Positions 55,251 through 64,000 of a stretch of DNA of 64,000 nt are shown here, piece after piece. Each line of letters begins with the position of its first letter. Position 1 is the stretch's first letter. This DNA is from Salinibacter grassmerensis (GTDB lineage Bacteria; Bacteroidota; Rhodothermia; Rhodothermales; Salinibacteraceae): contig NZ_CAMTTF010000004.1 of NCBI RefSeq assembly GCF_947077765.1, forward strand, positions 238,012-302,011. Reading direction: 5' to 3'. The notes beneath the pieces are model-generated. The model had not been told where the DNA came from, ran no database searches, and saw nothing but the letters and a program-made list of their open reading frames with translations. The translations under genes and the position numbers were made by a program.

Positions 55251-57473
55251 TCACCCCTCGGGCCCGGTGCCTGTCGTAATTTCCTCCACGAGGCGATCGG
55301 CCTCGTAGACCGTGCGGAGGGCCTCCAGAATGCCCCGCCCGTCGACCGCCACCGCCCGGGCACCGGTTCGGCGGTACAGGTACTCGTTGGGCAGGGCCTC
55401 CATGTTGCTGTCGAAGACCACTCCTACGACTTCGAGGTCCTCGTTCAGCAGTGCCGACCCGGAACTGCCGCCCGAGATGTCGACGGTCGAGACGAGGTTG
55501 AGGGGGGTGTCGAGGTCGACTGAGTCAACCGCCGTCACCCACCGCGACGGGAGCGCCCACGCCTCCTCAGCGTGGGAAAAGTACTGGTTATACAGCCCAT
55601 GGAAGGTCGTGAAGGGCGGGGCCGTCGTTCCGTTGTACGAATACGACCGCACGCGGCCGTCCGAGAGCCGCAGCGAGCGCGTGGCGTCCGGCGGAAACGT
55701 GGTCCCGTAGATCGAAAGGCGGGCCCGCGAGAGGCGCGCATTGAGGGTTCGCTCCGACGCCCGCACGTCCTGCATCTGGCGGTTCGTGTTGAGGAACATG
55801 GGCGCCAGCGCCTCGATGACCGGCACCGACGGGTCGTCGCTCTTGCGGTACCCCTCGTCGAGCAGGTTGAGGAACTGGGTGGAGTCCATCAGTGCACTTT
55901 CTTCCACCAGACGGTCGGCCACCCCCCCCGGCGTGCGCGTCTTGAACAGTCGCTGGACGGTGGGATGATCGGCGCCGTAGGCCGCCCGGATTTCTTCAAA
56001 CTGCGCCACCAAGAACTCCTTCTCGAGCCCGGCGGGCCAGTTGGTCACCTGCTCGGCGTCCTCCCGGATGGCCTCCAGCCGATCGGGGGGAGCACCGCGC
56101 GTGCGCAGGAAGTCGTAGTAGTATCCGTGAAGCGCCCGCACCAGAATCCGGGACCCGAGCTCCAGGTTGGCGAACGTCGCGAAGGCCCCGGCCTTCTCCG
56201 CCATCACGACCTTGGACTGCTGGAGCCCCTCGATCCGTTCCACAATCGTCCCGTACGACTGCCGCAGCGAGTCGACGGCCCGGATGGAGTCCTGGAGGGC
56301 CTGAACGGCCGCGCCGCGCCGCGCCAGAAGGTACGAATCGCGGAGTCCTCGAAGCTGACCCGTCTGTCCTTTGATCGTGTTCTCGATCGAGAAATAGGTA
56401 TTCCGAAGGTCGTATCGGTCGGACGAGTCGGGGTTACTGCGAATGTAGGTCTCGAGCAGGTCGCCCCGCGTTCGGAGGGTCTCCAGGCGACGGGGAAGCT
56501 CGTGGTCTCGCTGATACTCGAGCTGAGACCTCATTTCGAAGCGACTCGTAGAGCCCGGGTGGCCCACGGCAAAAACCGACTCGTTGGGCTGGGCGCCCTC
56601 CGTAGCCCACGAGAAGTGGTGCTCAGGGCGGAGGGGGTCGCCCGCCGAGGTGTATACCCGAAAAAAAGCCACGTCCAGCGCGTAGCGGGGATACGTGAAG
56701 TTATCCTCCGTCCCCCCGAAATACCCGAGCTGCAGCTCCGGGGCCATCACAAGCCGGACGTCCTCGTACCGGCGGTACGTGTAGGCTGTGTACCGCGCTC
56801 CCTGGTACAGCGCCTTAATTTCCACACGAAGCGAACTGTCCCGCTTGCTGGCCTCAGCCGTCAACTGTTCTTGGAGCGACTGGACGCGCTGCTCGCGGGC
56901 CTGCGCCTCGGCCTCTCGCCCCTGGCGGAGCCCACCGTAGACCGTACCGGTGACGTTCTCCGCCTCGACGAGTTGGTCGACGTACAGATCGGAAGCTCGG
57001 CGTTCTTCGCCGCGCGACGCCGCGTAGAATCCATTTTCAAGGAGGGCCTCTTCGTCCCGACGGACGTCCGTAATGTGCTCCCGCGCACAGTGGTGATTGG
57101 TCATCACGAGGCCCTTCGACGACACGAAGGACGCCGAGCACCCACTGCCAAACCGCAGCGCGCCGCGCCGCGCCTTCGTGCGCCACTCCTCATCGGGGGT
57201 AAAGCCGTGGGTCTCCCGCAAATACGACGTGGGCAGGTTCTCAAACGCCCACATCCGCCCGCGGTCGAACCGCTGGGCCTGGACGGTGTCATAGGGCGAC
57301 GGGGTCGGCACCGCCTCCGTGGCGGTCGCCTCCACCGTATCGTCCACAGATTCGGTCTCGTCGGGGCGCTCCACGACGGGGACCGACACGGTGCCCCCGC
57401 TCCCCCCACAGCCCGTGAGGAGGGCGGCCCCTATTCCCAAAATTGCGACGAGACGCCCAACAGAAGTGCGCAT
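55251..57473 (-). CDS. S46 family dipeptidyl-peptidase (DPP7/DPP11-like), active form
   Basis: 740 aa from ATG 57473. A lipoprotein signal with LLTGC (Cys22) anchors it, in contrast to the soluble periplasmic DPP7/DPP11. A Glu/Thr/Pro-rich spacer precedes RMWAFENLPTSYLRETHG and the serine-protease fold. The catalytic His is in KGLVMTNHHCAREHI (about 120-134), Asp in YPRYALDVAFFRVYTSAG and Ser in DISGGSSGSALL. A helical domain lies between the halves. The family removes dipeptides from peptide N-termini. At the position of Porphyromonas DPP11 Arg673 / DPP7 Gly673 this protein has Ser (VVFDSNMEA), so its specificity is unclear. Confidence 0.92.
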   Translation of the reverse strand: MRTSVGRLVAILGIGAALLTGCGGSGGTVSVPVVERPDETESVDDTVEATATEAVPTPSPYDTVQAQRFDRGRMWAFENLPTSYLRETHGFTPDEEWRTKARRGALRFGSGCSASFVSSKGLVMTNHHCAREHITDVRRDEEALLENGFYAASRGEERRASDLYVDQLVEAENVTGTVYGGLRQGREAEAQAREQRVQSLQEQLTAEASKRDSSLRVEIKALYQGARYTAYTYRRYEDVRLVMAPELQLGYFGGTEDNFTYPRYALDVAFFRVYTSAGDPLRPEHHFSWATEGAQPNESVFAVGHPGSTSRFEMRSQLEYQRDHELPRRLETLRTRGDLLETYIRSNPDSSDRYDLRNTYFSIENTIKGQTGQLRGLRDSYLLARRGAAVQALQDSIRAVDSLRQSYGTIVERIEGLQQSKVVMAEKAGAFATFANLELGSRILVRALHGYYYDFLRTRGAPPDRLEAIREDAEQVTNWPAGLEKEFLVAQFEEIRAAYGADHPTVQRLFKTRTPGGVADRLVEESALMDSTQFLNLLDEGYRKSDDPSVPVIEALAPMFLNTNRQMQDVRASERTLNARLSRARLSIYGTTFPPDATRSLRLSDGRVRSYSYNGTTAPPFTTFHGLYNQYFSHAEEAWALPSRWVTAVDSVDLDTPLNLVSTVDISGGSSGSALLNEDLEVVGVVFDSNMEALPNEYLYRRTGARAVAVDGRGILEALRTVYEADRLVEEITTGTGPEG

Positions 57474-57528
57474 GCAGATGGGTCTCACAACACAGAAGAG
57501 AACGCAATGCAACGCCGAAGCGTGCCCG

Positions 57529-59604
57529 TCAGGGCGAACGGCCGGACGAGCGGCCCCCGAATAGTTCGTCGACCAGCGCGTCCGCCCCGTACACCGCCGT
57601 CAGGGCCTCGCGCAGGCCGCGCACGTCCGTCCCCACGGTCCGCATCCGCTCCGGCAGGAAGAGGTACGTGCCCGCCACGCCTTGAATGTTGGCCTCCGCG
57701 GCGACTCCCACCAGCTCCAGGGATTGGGTGAGGAGCGGCGCTCCATCGTTACTGACCGCCCCGTCGACGGAGGCCACGAAGGTGAGGGGCACCGAGCGAT
57801 CCATGCCCGCTGCCTCTTGCCACCGCTCCGGCAGGGCCCGCGGTTCGTCCCTGCCGAACGCGCGGTTCTGGTCGTAGAGGCCGAAGACGGTGGTGAAGGG
57901 CGGGGCCGTCGTGCCGTTGTACGGGTAGCCGCGGACGCGCCCGTCCGTCAGCCGGGGGGCGCGTCCGCCCGTCAACACTGGGACCGACCGGACGGCGCGA
58001 CGAGCTTCGGCGAGACGCCGGGTGAGACGCCGTTCGGTCTGTGTGAGGTTTCGCCACTGCTCGTGAAACGAGCGGGCCCGCGACCCGACCGCATCGGCCA
58101 CACTGGCCGCGGGGCCGTCGGTGGGGAATGTGTTCGTTCCTCCCGCCGAGGGCGACGCCAGCTGCTCAATGACCGAGGCGGCGCGCTCCGCGGGCGGCTG
58201 CCCGCCGAGGAGCCGATCTATGGCGGCGGTGTCCGGGCGGAGGTGCCGCTGCAGGGCCTCGAGCCGGGCGGCCAGCAGGGCAGTCTCGACCGGAGGACCC
58301 GGCGAAGACTGGCGGGAATCCGCAGTGGCCGTTGAGGCATGCGAGGATGCTGTGCGCGCCGGGGGCTCCTGCTCCCCTCGAAGCAGCCGGCGGTACGTCG
58401 ACGAGCCGTACGCGCCCCCCTTGGCGTCCCCGAAGGCCCGGTAGGCGGCCCCATACGTCCGTTTTGCGTTCTGAATCGCAGCCAGGCTGTCCAGCAGCCC
58501 CCCGAACTGCCGCTGGAGGGCCGGGTCTTGGCGCAGAGCGTGCCGGAGCCAAGCGTCTCGCTGCTCGAGACGGGCCCGGACGTACTCGTTCCGAAGGGCC
58601 TCCAGGCGTACCCGGGTCTGTTTCAGGGCCCGCTCAGCGTCTCGGAGGGCCCTGCGCGACGCGGGCATCGCCTCAGCAGTATCGAGATGAGCCCGTAAGG
58701 CTTGGGCCCGCGTCTCCAGGCGGTCGCGCCGCTCCGGAAGCACCAGGTCCCGCCGCACGGCAAGCTGCGCCGCACTTTCCGCACGGCGGGTGGCCGTGGG
58801 CGGCCCGGCCGAGAACACGGCGTCTCCGGGACGCACCCCCTGCGTAGAGGGTTCGAAAAAGTGGTCGGGGGCCAACGGCCGCCCCTCCGACGTGTAAACG
58901 CGCAGCAGGGCAACATCGAAGGCCGGCCGCGGGTACGTCAGCGCCGCGTCGGTGCCCCCGAACGCACTGATCCGCCGGTCCGGCAGAAAGGCAACGCGCA
59001 CATCCCCGTGTCGCTGATAGGTATACGCCGTGTATGCACCGTTTCCGTCCGTCGCCACCTCCACGTGCCGACGCGCCTCGGTCTCCGACTGGAGCCGCCG
59101 CTGGACCGCGGAGACCGCAGCCGCCTCGGCGGTATCCTTCCGAGCCGCCCGCACCTCCATCGTCACGTCGCTCGTCCGGACCAGGCGGTCTGCATGCAGG
59201 GCCGGCACGGCGCGCTCATCGGCGGGCCGCTCAGCCACGACGGCAGTGTCACGTTGCGCGTCCAGATGCTGTCGCACACAGCGGGCCGTCGTGAGGGCGA
59301 GCCCGTTCGCCGAGACCAGCGCCCCTGTGCACCCCGGAAGCCGCAGGACGCCTCGGCGCAGGTGGGTCGCCCAGGCGCTGTCCACCTCCATCCCGTACCG
59401 CTTCACAAGCCGATCGGCCGGCGGCGCGACGAGGCTCCAGATCCGCCCCGCATCCGACGCCTCCGCTGCGACCGTGTCGCCCGGCGCGGGCGGGCCAAAC
59501 CGCGGTGCCCCCCGGTCCTGCGCCTGCGCCTCCGGCCCGGCCACGGGGCCGCCCCACAGCAGACTCGCCACGCCAATAAGAAGTGCGATGCCTCGGAGCG
59601 TCAT
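57529..59604 (-). CDS. degenerate S46 peptidase paralogue, catalytic His and Ser lost
   Basis: 691 aa, full length, with a Sec signal (ALLIGVASLLWGGPVAGP, cut near AQAQ). It aligns with the upstream S46 protein throughout: RIWSLVAPPADRLVKRYGM, YPRPAFDVALLRVYTSEGRP, APRLTDGRVRGYPYNGTTAP. The active site has gone: NHHC is TARC (GLALTTARCVRQHL), and the Ser motif GGSSGS is AVSNDGA (Ser replaced by Asp). Only the Asp is left. The frame is intact with no stop, so it is not an ordinary pseudogene. It probably has a non-catalytic role such as binding peptides or partnering the active enzyme encoded 55 bases downstream. Confidence 0.88.
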   Translation of the reverse strand: MTLRGIALLIGVASLLWGGPVAGPEAQAQDRGAPRFGPPAPGDTVAAEASDAGRIWSLVAPPADRLVKRYGMEVDSAWATHLRRGVLRLPGCTGALVSANGLALTTARCVRQHLDAQRDTAVVAERPADERAVPALHADRLVRTSDVTMEVRAARKDTAEAAAVSAVQRRLQSETEARRHVEVATDGNGAYTAYTYQRHGDVRVAFLPDRRISAFGGTDAALTYPRPAFDVALLRVYTSEGRPLAPDHFFEPSTQGVRPGDAVFSAGPPTATRRAESAAQLAVRRDLVLPERRDRLETRAQALRAHLDTAEAMPASRRALRDAERALKQTRVRLEALRNEYVRARLEQRDAWLRHALRQDPALQRQFGGLLDSLAAIQNAKRTYGAAYRAFGDAKGGAYGSSTYRRLLRGEQEPPARTASSHASTATADSRQSSPGPPVETALLAARLEALQRHLRPDTAAIDRLLGGQPPAERAASVIEQLASPSAGGTNTFPTDGPAASVADAVGSRARSFHEQWRNLTQTERRLTRRLAEARRAVRSVPVLTGGRAPRLTDGRVRGYPYNGTTAPPFTTVFGLYDQNRAFGRDEPRALPERWQEAAGMDRSVPLTFVASVDGAVSNDGAPLLTQSLELVGVAAEANIQGVAGTYLFLPERMRTVGTDVRGLREALTAVYGADALVDELFGGRSSGRSP

Positions 59605-59738: not shown

Positions 59739-59749
59739 ACACCCCGCAC

Positions 59750-59795
59750 GCGAAAGTGGCGGAATTGGTAGACGCGCGAGACTTAGGATCTCTTC
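59750..59795 (+). tRNA. tRNA-Leu(UAG), 5' half only; element attachment junction
   Basis: GCGAAAG (acceptor 5' strand, 59750-59756), TG, the D-arm with GGTAGA and the anticodon arm CGAGA-CTTAGGA-TCTC follow the normal tRNA-Leu layout with anticodon TAG. Similarity stops after the anticodon stem: no long variable arm, no GGTTCRA T-loop and no CTTTCGC acceptor strand can be found in the next 300 bases. The nearest gene downstream is a tyrosine integrase. The symmetrical anticodon arm is a common crossover site for such enzymes, so this is probably attL, with the 3' half of the tRNA at the far end of the element. Confidence 0.75.
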
Positions 59796-59802
59796 AAGCT
59801 CG

Positions 59803-59909
59803 CCCGAAATCTACCTTAGCGCCGCCTGAGGGCACTTTTTGACCCGAATTGGCGACTTGGTGTGTACAACCCTGTGACCAATCGCCGCTAAACACCTCTT
59901 GATTTCGGG
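59803..59909. repeat. 9-bp inverted repeat next to the junction
   Basis: CCCGAAATC (59803-59811) and GATTTCGGG (59901-59909) are perfect inverted copies 89 bases apart, just inside the presumed left end of the element. They may be integrase arm sites. Confidence 0.4.
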
Positions 59910-59939
59910 TCGGTAGAGCTCATCCGTAAAGGTCAGCAG

Positions 59940-60029
59940 TCATCTGCGCCGAGCAAGCCCTTCGTACCGGGCGACCCTCTTGCGCTGGGTGAACCTCCTG
60001 TGCTGGATGAGCCTCTTGTGCTGGGCAAG
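59940..60029. repeat. five degenerate 18-bp tandem repeats
   Basis: Units at 59940, 59958, 59976, 59994 and 60012 follow the consensus CCTCTTGYGCTGGGCAAG, the last three most alike. On the minus strand they can be read as repeated PAQE-H peptides in a 63-codon frame, but that frame is not convincing as a gene. They lie between the tRNA junction and the integrase start and end about 70 bases before it. Confidence 0.7.
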
Positions 60030-60100
60030 CCCGCGCTACATCCCAGGCTGCGTCCCAGCCAGTGCCATGTCTTGGTGCCATAGGTCCCCTACCTCTACCT

Positions 60101-61228
60101 ATGGCCTCCATCTACAGACGCAACGACACCTACTACGCGAAATTCCACGACTCCTCTCGGGAGCCAACCGATAAGCGGTTCTCCCTCCGCACCTCCGAAA
60201 GAGACGAGGCGCGCCACCTCCTCACCGATCTGGAGCGGGCCATTGGGAATGGGAACTTCGACCCGTGGCGACACGACCCCTTCGAGACCGTCTTCGCCCC
60301 AGAGGAGGGCGATCCCCAAACTCCCGAGACTACCTCCTTCACTCTGAGTGAGGTGATCGAGGCGTTCTCTCAGGCGAAGAGACAGCAGGGACGAGCCGAG
60401 TCCACGATTCGGAAGTACAGGGACATCTGGCGCATCCTGAAGCGACGAGCCGGACCCGATACGGACCTCAGTAAACTGACCCCCAACCAGATCCGGGGAT
60501 TTGTTTATGACTCGTCGATCAAGCCCACGACCCAGAAGACAAGGTACCGCCACATTCGGGCAGTCCTCCGGTGGGCAGGCGAAGGAGACGTTCTAAGCGA
60601 GGTCGAGGAGCCCCGCGCTGGCAAGAAGCTCCCGAAAGCCGTCCGCGCCGAGGAGCTTGACATGATCTGCCAGTCGGTCGTGAAGGGCTACCAAGAGAAG
60701 CGAAGGGGAGGCGGGTGCCGCCCTCGCGAGATTCTTTGGCTGATCCCGCTCTTCCGCTTTGCCTACTTCACGGGCCTACGAGGGTCCGAGCTCGGTCGTC
60801 TCCGATGGACGCACATCGACCTTAAGCGCCAGCGCCTGACCGTCTACGAACAGAAGAGTGGCAACGAGGACACAATTCCCCTCGTGGAGCCCGCTGTGGC
60901 CCTCCTACAGGCCCTCGACACAGATGACAAGAGCAGCAGGGCATTTGTCTTTCACTCCCCCTCAGGGAACCGGTGGGACCGCTCATCGAAGCGATTCAGG
61001 GAGCACGTCAGCCGCCAGTTCGCAACGTACCGAGACAAGGCAGGGGTGCGCCCGACCCTCACCCTGCACGGACTTCGGCACGGGTTCGCAACCCGATTAG
61101 CCGAGAATGGCGCCTCAGCAATCGTCATCAAGGGGGCCATGCGTCACAGCAGCATCAGCACATCGATGAAGTACGTGCACCTCGCCAACGGGCGCCTTCA
61201 GGAGGAGCTAAACGGGGCATTCTCGTAG
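60101..61228 (+). CDS. tyrosine recombinase/integrase
   Basis: 375 aa from ATG 60101. An N-terminal arm-binding region (MASIYRRNDTYYAKFHDSSR) and a SAM-like core-binding domain (about 80-165, SEVIEAFSQAKRQQGRAEST) precede the catalytic domain. Catalytic residues: Arg227 (TGLRGSELGRLRW), Lys252 (YEQKSGNEDTIP), His323 and Arg326 (LHGLRHGFATRL), His349 (MRHSSISTS) and nucleophile Tyr358 (MKYVHL), all present. It is directed away from the truncated tRNA-Leu, the standard arrangement of a tRNA-targeted element, so it is the likely enzyme that inserted it. Confidence 0.93.
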   Translation: MASIYRRNDTYYAKFHDSSREPTDKRFSLRTSERDEARHLLTDLERAIGNGNFDPWRHDPFETVFAPEEGDPQTPETTSFTLSEVIEAFSQAKRQQGRAESTIRKYRDIWRILKRRAGPDTDLSKLTPNQIRGFVYDSSIKPTTQKTRYRHIRAVLRWAGEGDVLSEVEEPRAGKKLPKAVRAEELDMICQSVVKGYQEKRRGGGCRPREILWLIPLFRFAYFTGLRGSELGRLRWTHIDLKRQRLTVYEQKSGNEDTIPLVEPAVALLQALDTDDKSSRAFVFHSPSGNRWDRSSKRFREHVSRQFATYRDKAGVRPTLTLHGLRHGFATRLAENGASAIVIKGAMRHSSISTSMKYVHLANGRLQEELNGAFS

Positions 61229-61526
61229 CACCAGTCCCTTACTCCTTCACAGGGCACCCGTGCCTCTCTTAGCTGCACACGCTCAGCCTCTGCGCACTGT
61301 CAGGCTTCACGCAATCCCAGAGGATCCGTGTCTGAATATAGCGGATCACCCCCCTGGACGGCACGAGCTTCAGCAGCAGGGATCAGCTTCAGGGACCTAG
61401 ACTACGCCGGTACATCCCTATCCTTATTCTTCATTTACGACTATACCACAAACCGGTTGCGGGGTCGAGAAGGAGCCCGTATCCAGAAGTGTATCGTTTT
61501 CCTTCATTCAGAAACCCCGCCCCGCG
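61229..61526. other. gap between integrase and exonuclease genes
   Basis: 298 bases with no supported gene. GGCAC-CC-GTGCC (61253-61264) followed by TCTCTT is a weak hairpin that could end the integrase transcript. The part at 61420-61510 is AT-richer (CCTTATTCTTCATTTACGAC) and probably holds the promoter of the exonuclease gene. Confidence 0.35.
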
Positions 61527-62201
61527 ATGCGCTATCTCTTCTTCGACACTGAGACAACCGGACTGCTGCCCAAGCCCAAGCCTCCAGTAACCGACACCGA
61601 CAAATGGCCCCGTGTCGTACAGATTGCGTGGTCCCATCTGTCCATCGACCCATACAGCATTGACAGGTCACTTAGCTACATCATCCGCCCCGACGGGTTT
61701 ACCATCCCGCAAGACGCTGCGGCGGTGCACGGCATCACCACCGAACGCGCCGAGGCAGAAGGCTACCCACGAGGTGAGGTGCTGGAGGCATTCAGCAAGG
61801 CTGTAAGCGCCTCGGATGTGCTCGTGGCCCACAGCATGTCCTTCGACCGTCCCGTCGTTCGCGCGGAGCTGGTGCGCCTGGGAATTCCGGATGTCCTCCA
61901 GGATGCAACTACCCTTTGCACCAAAAAGGCGTCCACCGACTACTGCAAGATCCCGTTTCCCAACGGGGGATACGGATACAAGTGGCCCTCTCTCCAAGAG
62001 CTTCACGAGAAGCTTTTCAGGAGTGGATTTGACGATGCCCACGACGCAGGGACAGACGTGAAGGCAGGAGCCCGATGCTTTCTCGAACTGTCGAGGCGGG
62101 GTATAATCTCAGCATCGGACTGTGTCTCCCACCCCTCTGAACAAGAGGCAAATCTCTTTTCCTGCGAAAACACCTCAGTGGGGGGCAACTCACCCTTCTG
62201 A
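61527..62201 (+). CDS. stand-alone DEDDh 3'-5' exonuclease (DnaQ/PolIII epsilon-like)
   Basis: 224 aa. ExoI is YLFFDTETTGLLP (Asp7, Glu9), ExoII VAHSMSFDRPVVRAE and ExoIII HDAGTDVKA with the His and Asp of the DEDDh type. YIIRPDGFTIPQDAAAVHGI and TTERAEAEG match the DnaQ spacing. This would be a proofreading-type 3'-5' DNA (or RNA) exonuclease. It is convergent with the PolA-like gene, whose stop lies 31 bases away. It is part of the mobile element rather than the host replisome set, since no polymerase III gene is near. Confidence 0.9.
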   Translation: MRYLFFDTETTGLLPKPKPPVTDTDKWPRVVQIAWSHLSIDPYSIDRSLSYIIRPDGFTIPQDAAAVHGITTERAEAEGYPRGEVLEAFSKAVSASDVLVAHSMSFDRPVVRAELVRLGIPDVLQDATTLCTKKASTDYCKIPFPNGGYGYKWPSLQELHEKLFRSGFDDAHDAGTDVKAGARCFLELSRRGIISASDCVSHPSEQEANLFSCENTSVGGNSPF

Positions 62202-62232
62202 GATGTACTTCTTTCGAGGCATTCAGCCGCCT

Positions 62233-63876
62233 TCAATCACCAAACTCGTCCTTCGGGAAGCCCACCTCCAATCGGGTGTGATAGTCTCCGACAGCACTGT
62301 TCACCGCCTCCTGAAAGCGCTCTACGTAGGTAGCCCTCCTGCTACGGTCCCTAACATGGATAGAAAATCCATCATGTTGCCAAAGCACAATCCAAAATCG
62401 GGGGCTTTCTCCTGCCTCATCAGCCCTTTGAAGCTCACTCTCCGCTACGTCCAGGGCAGGGAGAAGCAACTTCAACTCCTTCGACTGAGCGAGTTGCGCA
62501 AGCACGCTCAGGGCATCAGTGTCACTGCTAAGCCTGATTTCTCGTCCAAAGGTATCCGTTGCCCTCCCTTGGTCTTCTATCTGGGCAATCTGGCTCTCGC
62601 GCTCTCGTAGCAGTTGCTCAATAAAAGAGTGCGAGAAGATCCTTGAAAAGAATTTGTTGCTGACTGAAGGACCCACCCCTTTTGAATATTTTTCCTCCAT
62701 CACTTCCAAAGTTTTGGGCTTGCCTCCCCCGTAAACAATAGCATAGAGTCCTTTCTTGAGACAAGGCTTGGCGACCTCTATCGGGACACCGCCCTTGTGT
62801 CCCTTCCACCCCATAAAGTCGTAGAGGCTCTGCCAAATGCTCTTTTCCTCCTGGAGGAACTCCTCGATTTCAGTCAGCCCCCAATCATGTGCTACGATTG
62901 CGAGCTGTGCCGAGGCAAGATCGAGCTCGATCCAGTCCGGCTGCAGGGTCCGACGTAGCTTCTTGTTGATGTTGCAGTAGGAGTACCCGGAGGTGAATAC
63001 CCGAACGGTGTTGCCGAAATAGGAGGGCTTGTAGCGCGGGACAGGGTCGTAATCTATTGCTGTGAGTTGGGCGCGAGCAATGGTCAGGGCACGTATGGAC
63101 TTCGACTGTTCAGTGACCAAACGGTGTGCACACTCAAGGTCATCCTTGTCGGGTCTGAACTTACTGCTACGGTTTCCCCTTCCTACCTCGTTGAGGTACT
63201 TCAGCAGGCGCTTCTGCGGGCTACAGAGAGCCCGTTTGATCCACTTCTCTTGCTCCGTTTCATCTTTCTTTTTGACCCTACTTCGAGACGTAGGATTGAC
63301 ATTTTTGATTGGGTAATCGAAATATACTTCATCATCCTCACTATTAGGCTTCAGGGCTTCGACTCGCCTCTTCAACAGCCCATCCGGTAGCGCCTCCGGT
63401 ACGCCCACCAGTTCGCGTGCAAGACCCTTGCTGTAGCTGGGATCCAGAATCTCAACGCCAGGAAGCACCTCCTCCAAGAACCGTCTCAGTATCTTACCAG
63501 TGGCGTTCTCGCCCTGCAAATAGTTGCGGTTGCGTAAATCCCACTCCATCCCCGCACACTCCGCGACTCGCTCAAACGGAATAGCGATGTGCTGGTCTGG
63601 ATCACTGTGCTCCACGGACATCAGGAGTGTAATGGAGAGCCTGAAGTGCGTCGTGTCTTCCTGTGGAGGCTTTCTTTTCGAAGTATCAAGCTCCAGAAAG
63701 GCACAAATCTCCTCACAAAACGAACGAGGGACGACGCGGCGCCAGGGTTCGGAGGCTGCCAGTGTCGCCTCCCCCTTCTCCAGCAGTCGGGAATTCTCCT
63801 CTGGCGCAGAGTCGATCTTCGAGAAGCCAGTTAAGTCTGCTTCTGATTTTGTGCCGACGTTTTCAGTTCTTGCCAT
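62233..63876 (-). CDS. divergent family A (PolA-like) DNA polymerase palm protein without exonuclease domain
   Basis: 547 aa. The palm/fingers motifs of family A polymerases are in order: NTVRVFTSGYSYCNINKK (about 289-306) at the T-G-R-x-S position; motif A WIELDLASAQLAIVAHDWG (Asp319) matching DYSQIELRVLAHLS; motif B with Lys374 and YAIVYGG (Tyr382, eight residues after the Lys as in PolA); TDTFGREIRL (441-450) matching ETLFGRR; motif C WQHDGF (His501-Asp502), where PolA has HDE. The N-terminal 200 residues match nothing I recognise and may contain a winged-helix-like region (80-140). No 5' or 3' exonuclease is fused. Base composition is visibly AT-richer than the host (24 G+C in 62641-62700). 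Function in replication of the element is inferred. Confidence 0.78.
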   Translation of the reverse strand: MARTENVGTKSEADLTGFSKIDSAPEENSRLLEKGEATLAASEPWRRVVPRSFCEEICAFLELDTSKRKPPQEDTTHFRLSITLLMSVEHSDPDQHIAIPFERVAECAGMEWDLRNRNYLQGENATGKILRRFLEEVLPGVEILDPSYSKGLARELVGVPEALPDGLLKRRVEALKPNSEDDEVYFDYPIKNVNPTSRSRVKKKDETEQEKWIKRALCSPQKRLLKYLNEVGRGNRSSKFRPDKDDLECAHRLVTEQSKSIRALTIARAQLTAIDYDPVPRYKPSYFGNTVRVFTSGYSYCNINKKLRRTLQPDWIELDLASAQLAIVAHDWGLTEIEEFLQEEKSIWQSLYDFMGWKGHKGGVPIEVAKPCLKKGLYAIVYGGGKPKTLEVMEEKYSKGVGPSVSNKFFSRIFSHSFIEQLLRERESQIAQIEDQGRATDTFGREIRLSSDTDALSVLAQLAQSKELKLLLPALDVAESELQRADEAGESPRFWIVLWQHDGFSIHVRDRSRRATYVERFQEAVNSAVGDYHTRLEVGFPKDEFGD

Positions 63877-64000
63877 GCTTCAGGTACCGTACATCAGGAA
63901 GAATTGCCTGCTCTTTGCCACACAAGGCAGGTGAAGAAGAGGGGGACACCTCCATCGGATACGCAACAATGGTGAGTGGTGTGTGTGGTGGGGGGGGTGG
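63877..64000. other. right edge of window, upstream of the PolA-like gene
   Basis: 124 bases that probably hold the leader or promoter of the leftward PolA-like gene. The final bases are a G/T-rich simple stretch (GGTGAGTGGTGTGTGTGGTG then a run of eight G). No gene is supported, and the element continues beyond the window. Confidence 0.35.

Follow-up and report, generated by a model that had tools for sequence, protein, structure and literature searches.

A predicted TV-Pol-like family A polymerase at one end of a tRNA-Leu(TAG) insertion in Salinibacter grassmerensis, likely to replicate the excised element

The DNA analysed here (the window, 64,000 nucleotides) is the terminal part of contig C4 of a Salinibacter grassmerensis genome of 3.78 Mb in 19 contigs. 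Beyond a tRNA fragment at 59744-59792, and up to where the contig stops, it encodes an integrase, a DEDDh exonuclease and a 547-residue protein. The latter two correspond to open reading frames singled out in an initial annotation; both are real and they are convergent. The G+C content drops from about 0.65-0.70 to 0.60 and then to 0.535 in the last two 2-kb bins. The features are as follows.

59744-59792, + strand: left attachment repeat, 49 bp, of which 59750-59792 is the tRNA half
59793-64000: visible part of the insertion, 4.2 kb, running to the contig end
60062-61228, + strand: tyrosine integrase (Phage_integrase, 6.8e-28; phrog_1 integrase, 3.8e-52), 388 residues counted from the first GTG
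61527-62201, + strand: stand-alone DEDDh (RNase_T) exonuclease, 224 residues (PF00929, 7e-12; phrog_192, 4e-33; PADLOC DEDDh, 8.5e-26)
62233-63876, - strand: predicted family A (TV-Pol-like) polymerase, 547 residues (fold model, profile comparison, motifs)

The 49-bp repeat reproduces, without mismatch, the 5' half of the sole intact tRNA-Leu(TAG) gene in the genome plus the six bases upstream of it, and its core has only two copies in the genome, one in the window and the other at C2:738996-739026. The intact gene is located on that other contig (C2:738952-739038), where type I CRISPR genes and another integrase adjoin it. In three congeners (G147, G195 and G199), the left flank of the window (86%, 84% and 77% identical, respectively), an intact tRNA-Leu(TAG) and the right flank found on C2 are contiguous, that is, the site is empty. 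Therefore, window positions 59793-64000 and a further 13.9 kb at C2:739039-752931 are both parts of an insertion of at least 18.1 kb, the middle of which is unassembled. The integrase, the attachment repeat derived from a tRNA gene and the empty site in relatives, which together mark a tRNA-targeting integrative element, support the early proposal that the polymerase resides on mobile DNA.

The C2 part of the insertion contains the second integrase, Cas3, a CRISPR array, Cas7-, Cas8b- and Cas6-like genes and a WYL regulator. Because two integrases lie inside, the insertion may correspond to two elements in tandem. The second integrase (L065:5540-7400) adjoins the intact tRNA-Leu(TAG), on whose other side about 1.7 kb (L090:18036-19733) has no match in G147, G195 or G199, and both observations could possibly reflect stacked insertions. 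The CRISPR array (L065:10135-13100; G000:C2, about 743600-746600), placed between Cas3 and the Cas7/Cas8b/Cas6-like genes, has about 40 repeats spaced by about 66 nt and strongly degenerate, with copies 60-86% identical to a reference copy; the scan of genes at this contig end showed neither Cas1 nor Cas2. To the left of the tRNA fragment, two adjacent - strand genes (window 55251-57512 and 57529-59604) encode proteins that look like paralogues of one family, with similar segments such as YNGTTAPPFTT, and in relatives a short stretch of one paralogue-like gene also matches upstream of the other.

The 547-residue protein matched no Pfam family in hmmscan at E <= 1. It did not reach E 0.001 with PF00476, a search of its own genome finding only the housekeeping PolA on C9. 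Structural modelling predicted a family A polymerase fold, with thumb, palm and fingers at residues ~199-547 and a separate N-terminal domain at residues ~40-195, which is predicted with low confidence to be of mixed alpha/beta type and is possibly, albeit weakly, winged-helix-like. The comparison of profiles by hhalign gave a probability of 87.7% (E 3.4e-6) with the host's own PolA and of 1.1% with the integrase of the window, used as a control, and family A polymerases of the PDB were matched at E about 0.01. Across 20 aligned rows of the family, D319, R292 and K374 are invariant and D502 is present in at least 90% (row L020 ends at a contig end ahead of this residue). R292 is flanked in the model by strands 281-284 and 293-296, and the position of the Arg in the RxxxK motif of the fingers is occupied by Lys370 in at least 90% of the rows and by Glu in L026. 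Pol I presents HDE at motif C and a Glu at the steric gate. The protein thus shares with bacterial DNA polymerase I (PolA) the polymerase fold, the catalytic Asp pair and the motif B Lys/Tyr, but it lacks both nuclease domains, has HDG in place of HDE and carries a Gln instead of the steric-gate Glu. The initial annotation had recognised the landmarks of a family A polymerase on a chain devoid of an exonuclease domain and with Gly replacing Glu after HD; the structure prediction and the match to PolA sustained the first point, and the other two held as well.

The closest known kin are found elsewhere, as the sequence groups with the TV-Pol (transposon/virus polymerase) family described in 2008 (Iyer, Abhiman and Aravind, PMC2579912). 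The family alignment (A2) matched four TV-Pol-like proteins with a probability of 98.2% (E 3.3e-14, 188 columns, hhalign), while those four rows alone failed to match the host PolA by the same method (0.3%). They comprise MAP_030 of cyanophage Ma-LMM01, one Calothrix protein and two Polaromonas plasmid proteins, all complete except the Calothrix row, which is cut at the start of its record; the Calothrix and Polaromonas rows were obtained by tblastn with MAP_030 or the Polaromonas row. We infer that MAP_030 is the TV-Pol meant in PMC2579912, since the passage concerned mentions the phage, along with an integrated element, without giving a gene name. QHDG at motif C is common to the polymerase family and all three complete TV-Pol-like rows, and the steric-gate position holds Q or H in 4/4. 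The Polaromonas plasmids also encode a 'recombinase family protein', and the sections of PMC2579912 on these polymerases describe such a recombinase/mobile-element setting.

According to the same sections, which predicted TV-Pols to be primase-polymerases of mobile elements, several traits are shared with the family studied here: a family A core containing an Asp pair and an invariant Arg, the latter located on a beta-hairpin ahead of motif A, the stand-alone form with an extra N-terminal domain, the lambda-type integrase or resolvase neighbours, the hot spots with restriction-modification genes, and the sporadic occurrence. In contrast, the D5-like helicase described there was not seen among the genes scanned in two fully bounded 6-kb elements found here (L021 and L026), the N-terminal domain, where present all-helical there, is here predicted with low confidence to be mixed alpha/beta, and Lys replaces the Arg of RxxxK. 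Moreover, the elements reported here are bounded by tRNA repeats, and that of the window also has an exonuclease neighbour. This kind of polymerase is already known and is not a split PolA; what is new is the lineage and the compact architecture. Among the matches listed in a literature search, no publication dealt with such elements in this group.

Matches to the polymerase were found in 13 of 114 genomes of the host's order (7 of 49 genera), in 6 of the 13 genomes of its genus and, with a narrower profile, in 8 of 395 genomes drawn from its phylum. The phylum of a Chloroflexales locus yielded 2/350 matches, one being that same genome and the other a match of 43 residues, and that of a cyanobacterial locus 2/339, one of them again that genome. 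A tyrosine integrase was found less than 10 kb from the polymerase at no fewer than 11 of 21 loci, G822 included, with about 1.2 expected if positions were random and independent (binomial 4e-9). Among 336 called genes at the 21 loci, the polymerase was found at 20 loci, the integrase at 10 and the next family, HsdS, at 3, so that polymerase and integrase are the only genes recurring in more than three neighbourhoods. Among the matches listed, 10 of the 21 loci lack a confidently identified integrase in this 10-kb range: G195:C2, G401, G1119:C271, G402 and G404, all close to contig ends; G147, G309 and a Deinococcus plasmid, away from them; and the two loci of G399, one of which has a weak integrase-like gene nearby. 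Distances between polymerases and between integrases are uncorrelated (9 pairs, Mantel r 0.085, p 0.34); therefore, the two genes are not one inherited pair.

The notion that the polymerase and the DEDDh exonuclease are the halves of a split PolA was put forward in the initial annotation. Read as a functional pair, a proofreading polymerase on two chains, it draws on the fact that the genes are adjacent and convergent, that both catalytic sets are complete, and that the polymerase chain has no exonuclease domain of its own. However, the genes lie on opposite strands, and no PF00929 (RNase_T) gene was found within 10 kb of the polymerase at any of the 20 other family loci, in a survey that extended to 10 kb or the contig end (several loci being near contig ends, with less than 10 kb visible on one side) and that covered loci outside the subclade of the closest homologues, P0002-P0010 (46-75% identical). 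The exonuclease also occurs on its own: its relatives at E <= 1e-8 include 131 phage and 7 plasmid records, the best listed phage matches showing 36-44% identity, and no family A polymerase was annotated beside them in the three regions opened. One phage annotates the exonuclease-related gene itself as 'DNA polymerase'. TV-Pols were never linked to nucleases according to the sections of PMC2579912 devoted to them; in our set the RNase_T gene of the window is the single case, and restriction enzymes appear among the payload. The survey and the phage and plasmid relatives do not support the proposed unit, and a functional pair seems very improbable; the exonuclease is probably an acquired accessory gene inside the insertion.

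Further insight came from four related elements bounded by tRNA repeats. In the 6,108-bp L021 (6.1 kb), the 5' half of tRNA-Leu(TAA) is repeated over 37 identical bp, in the arrangement seen in the window. Inside are an integrase gene, an 85-residue ORF, the polymerase gene and one for a PARIS-like AriAB. The 6,562-bp L026 (6.6 kb), with a 53-bp repeat at tRNA-Lys, combines the polymerase and an integrase with an Mrr-like gene and small ORFs. L022 (9.4 kb) and L023 (14.8 kb) are inserted at tRNA-Leu genes, with a 69-bp repeat at 97% and a 29-bp repeat, respectively. The boundaries of L022 are two tRNA-Leu(CAG) copies, one of which is broken up by additional sequence close to its 5' part (L022:15050-15190). 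In L023, a Pol III alpha-like protein (finger and NTPase domains) with a LAGLIDADG intein (L023:4487-7927) adjoins the TV-Pol-like gene, and at another locus an RNase H1 gene (L025:8236-9159) lies directly 3' of the polymerase on the same strand. No helicase gene was found in L021 or L026 (gene calls of at least 70 residues, Pfam scan), the small ORFs next to the polymerase in L021, L022, L026, L066 and L068 had no Pfam match, and a non-exhaustive search revealed no helicase, iteron array or SSB partner. Upstream of the polymerase of the window, 124 bp are left to the contig end.

The payload of these neighbourhoods is variable and includes PARIS-like AriAB, type IIG, type IV Mrr, type I R-M, BrxA, SIR2 with a short pAgo, and type I CRISPR. 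As a raw count, for 10 of the 15 loci of the host's order the scan of nearby genes gave at least one match to a defence or restriction-modification family (G000, G219, G231, G388, G1113, two in G1119, two in G195, and G309), although one of these matches is a C5 methyltransferase only, another rests on BLAST to a neighbour locus, and the scans covered part of the genes, with G147 and G399 the least scanned. Inside proven ends, a defence-like gene was found in L021, L026 and L023 only. At another locus, genes for a SIR2-type protein and a short prokaryotic Argonaute (L066:5360-8538; PADLOC 2e-176 and 3.8e-186) adjoin the polymerase and integrase at tRNA-Arg.

These counts, made on partial scans, would suit a polymerase that itself defends against phages and simply adds to the payload of a defence island, and the pertinent part of Rice 2023 (PMC10061031) leaves a defence role possible for PolA-SSB primases. 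However, the payload changes while the polymerase stays, no PADLOC model matched the polymerase, and it is the sole candidate replication gene of the two 6-kb elements, so that we regard such a role as unlikely. The earlier suggestion of a defence module built on a polymerase is weakened accordingly: defence-like neighbours do exist, but they vary, and only the polymerase and the integrase recur widely. A different task within the element, namely making the second strand or repairing gaps at single-strand entry or integration instead of replicating a circle, would agree with the fact that L021 and L026 have no other transfer or replication gene, and the portion of PMC10061031 dealing with SCC primases proposes a second-strand role for them. 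Since host PolA can fill gaps, and no transfer function was seen in the element of the window, this explanation also appears rather doubtful.

Considering that the polymerase is constant, the integrase frequent, the payload variable and the ends exact, the polymerase most likely serves the element by replicating it after excision. The overall reading, in which window 59744-64000 is one end of a tRNA-Leu(TAG) insertion whose TV-Pol-like polymerase likely replicates the excised element, with the exonuclease as a probable accessory, is given a probability of roughly 0.6. In the mechanism proposed, the integrase would recombine within the 5'/anticodon half of the tRNA and, as the element carries a copy of this half, a complete tRNA would persist at one of the ends. 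The excised element would then be bound through the N-terminal domain and copied by the polymerase domain, either from host primers or self-primed, as may be the case by analogy with CcPol-MP. Copying would keep the circle from being lost before reintegration or transfer, and the defence-like genes would be a payload favouring retention of the element.

Integrative elements with their own polymerase are likewise known in casposons and polintons, but these encode family B polymerases and unrelated integrases. Another parallel is that of CcPol-MP and the PolA-SSB primases of SCC-like elements, described in the pertinent parts of PMC7581432 and PMC10061031 as family A polymerases on integrative islands whose conflict genes vary; CcPol-MP needs no primer to start a DNA strand (PMC7581432). 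There, genes for an OB-fold partner and a helicase accompany that of the polymerase, mostly together with large serine recombinases, whereas here the integrases are of the tyrosine type, neither a partner nor a helicase was recognised, and the polymerase has no Pfam match. With the exception of CcPol, no TV-Pol member had been characterised to the knowledge of the authors of PMC7581432, as the text concerned states in 2020.

The 6.1-kb and 6.6-kb elements, with exact ends and one candidate replication gene each, therefore offer a small and clean test of whether one family A chain starts and copies an element. A more tentative idea, which we hold to be possible but do not favour, is that tRNA-gene elements of ~6 kb are minimal self-copying carriers of anti-phage defence genes, with no gene in common but those for a tyrosine integrase and a family A polymerase that would, as a single chain, prime itself and recognise its own origin via the N-terminal domain. 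Defence-like systems here travel with a candidate replication module that differs from the usual primases, for which P4-like and SaPI-type satellites provide the comparison.
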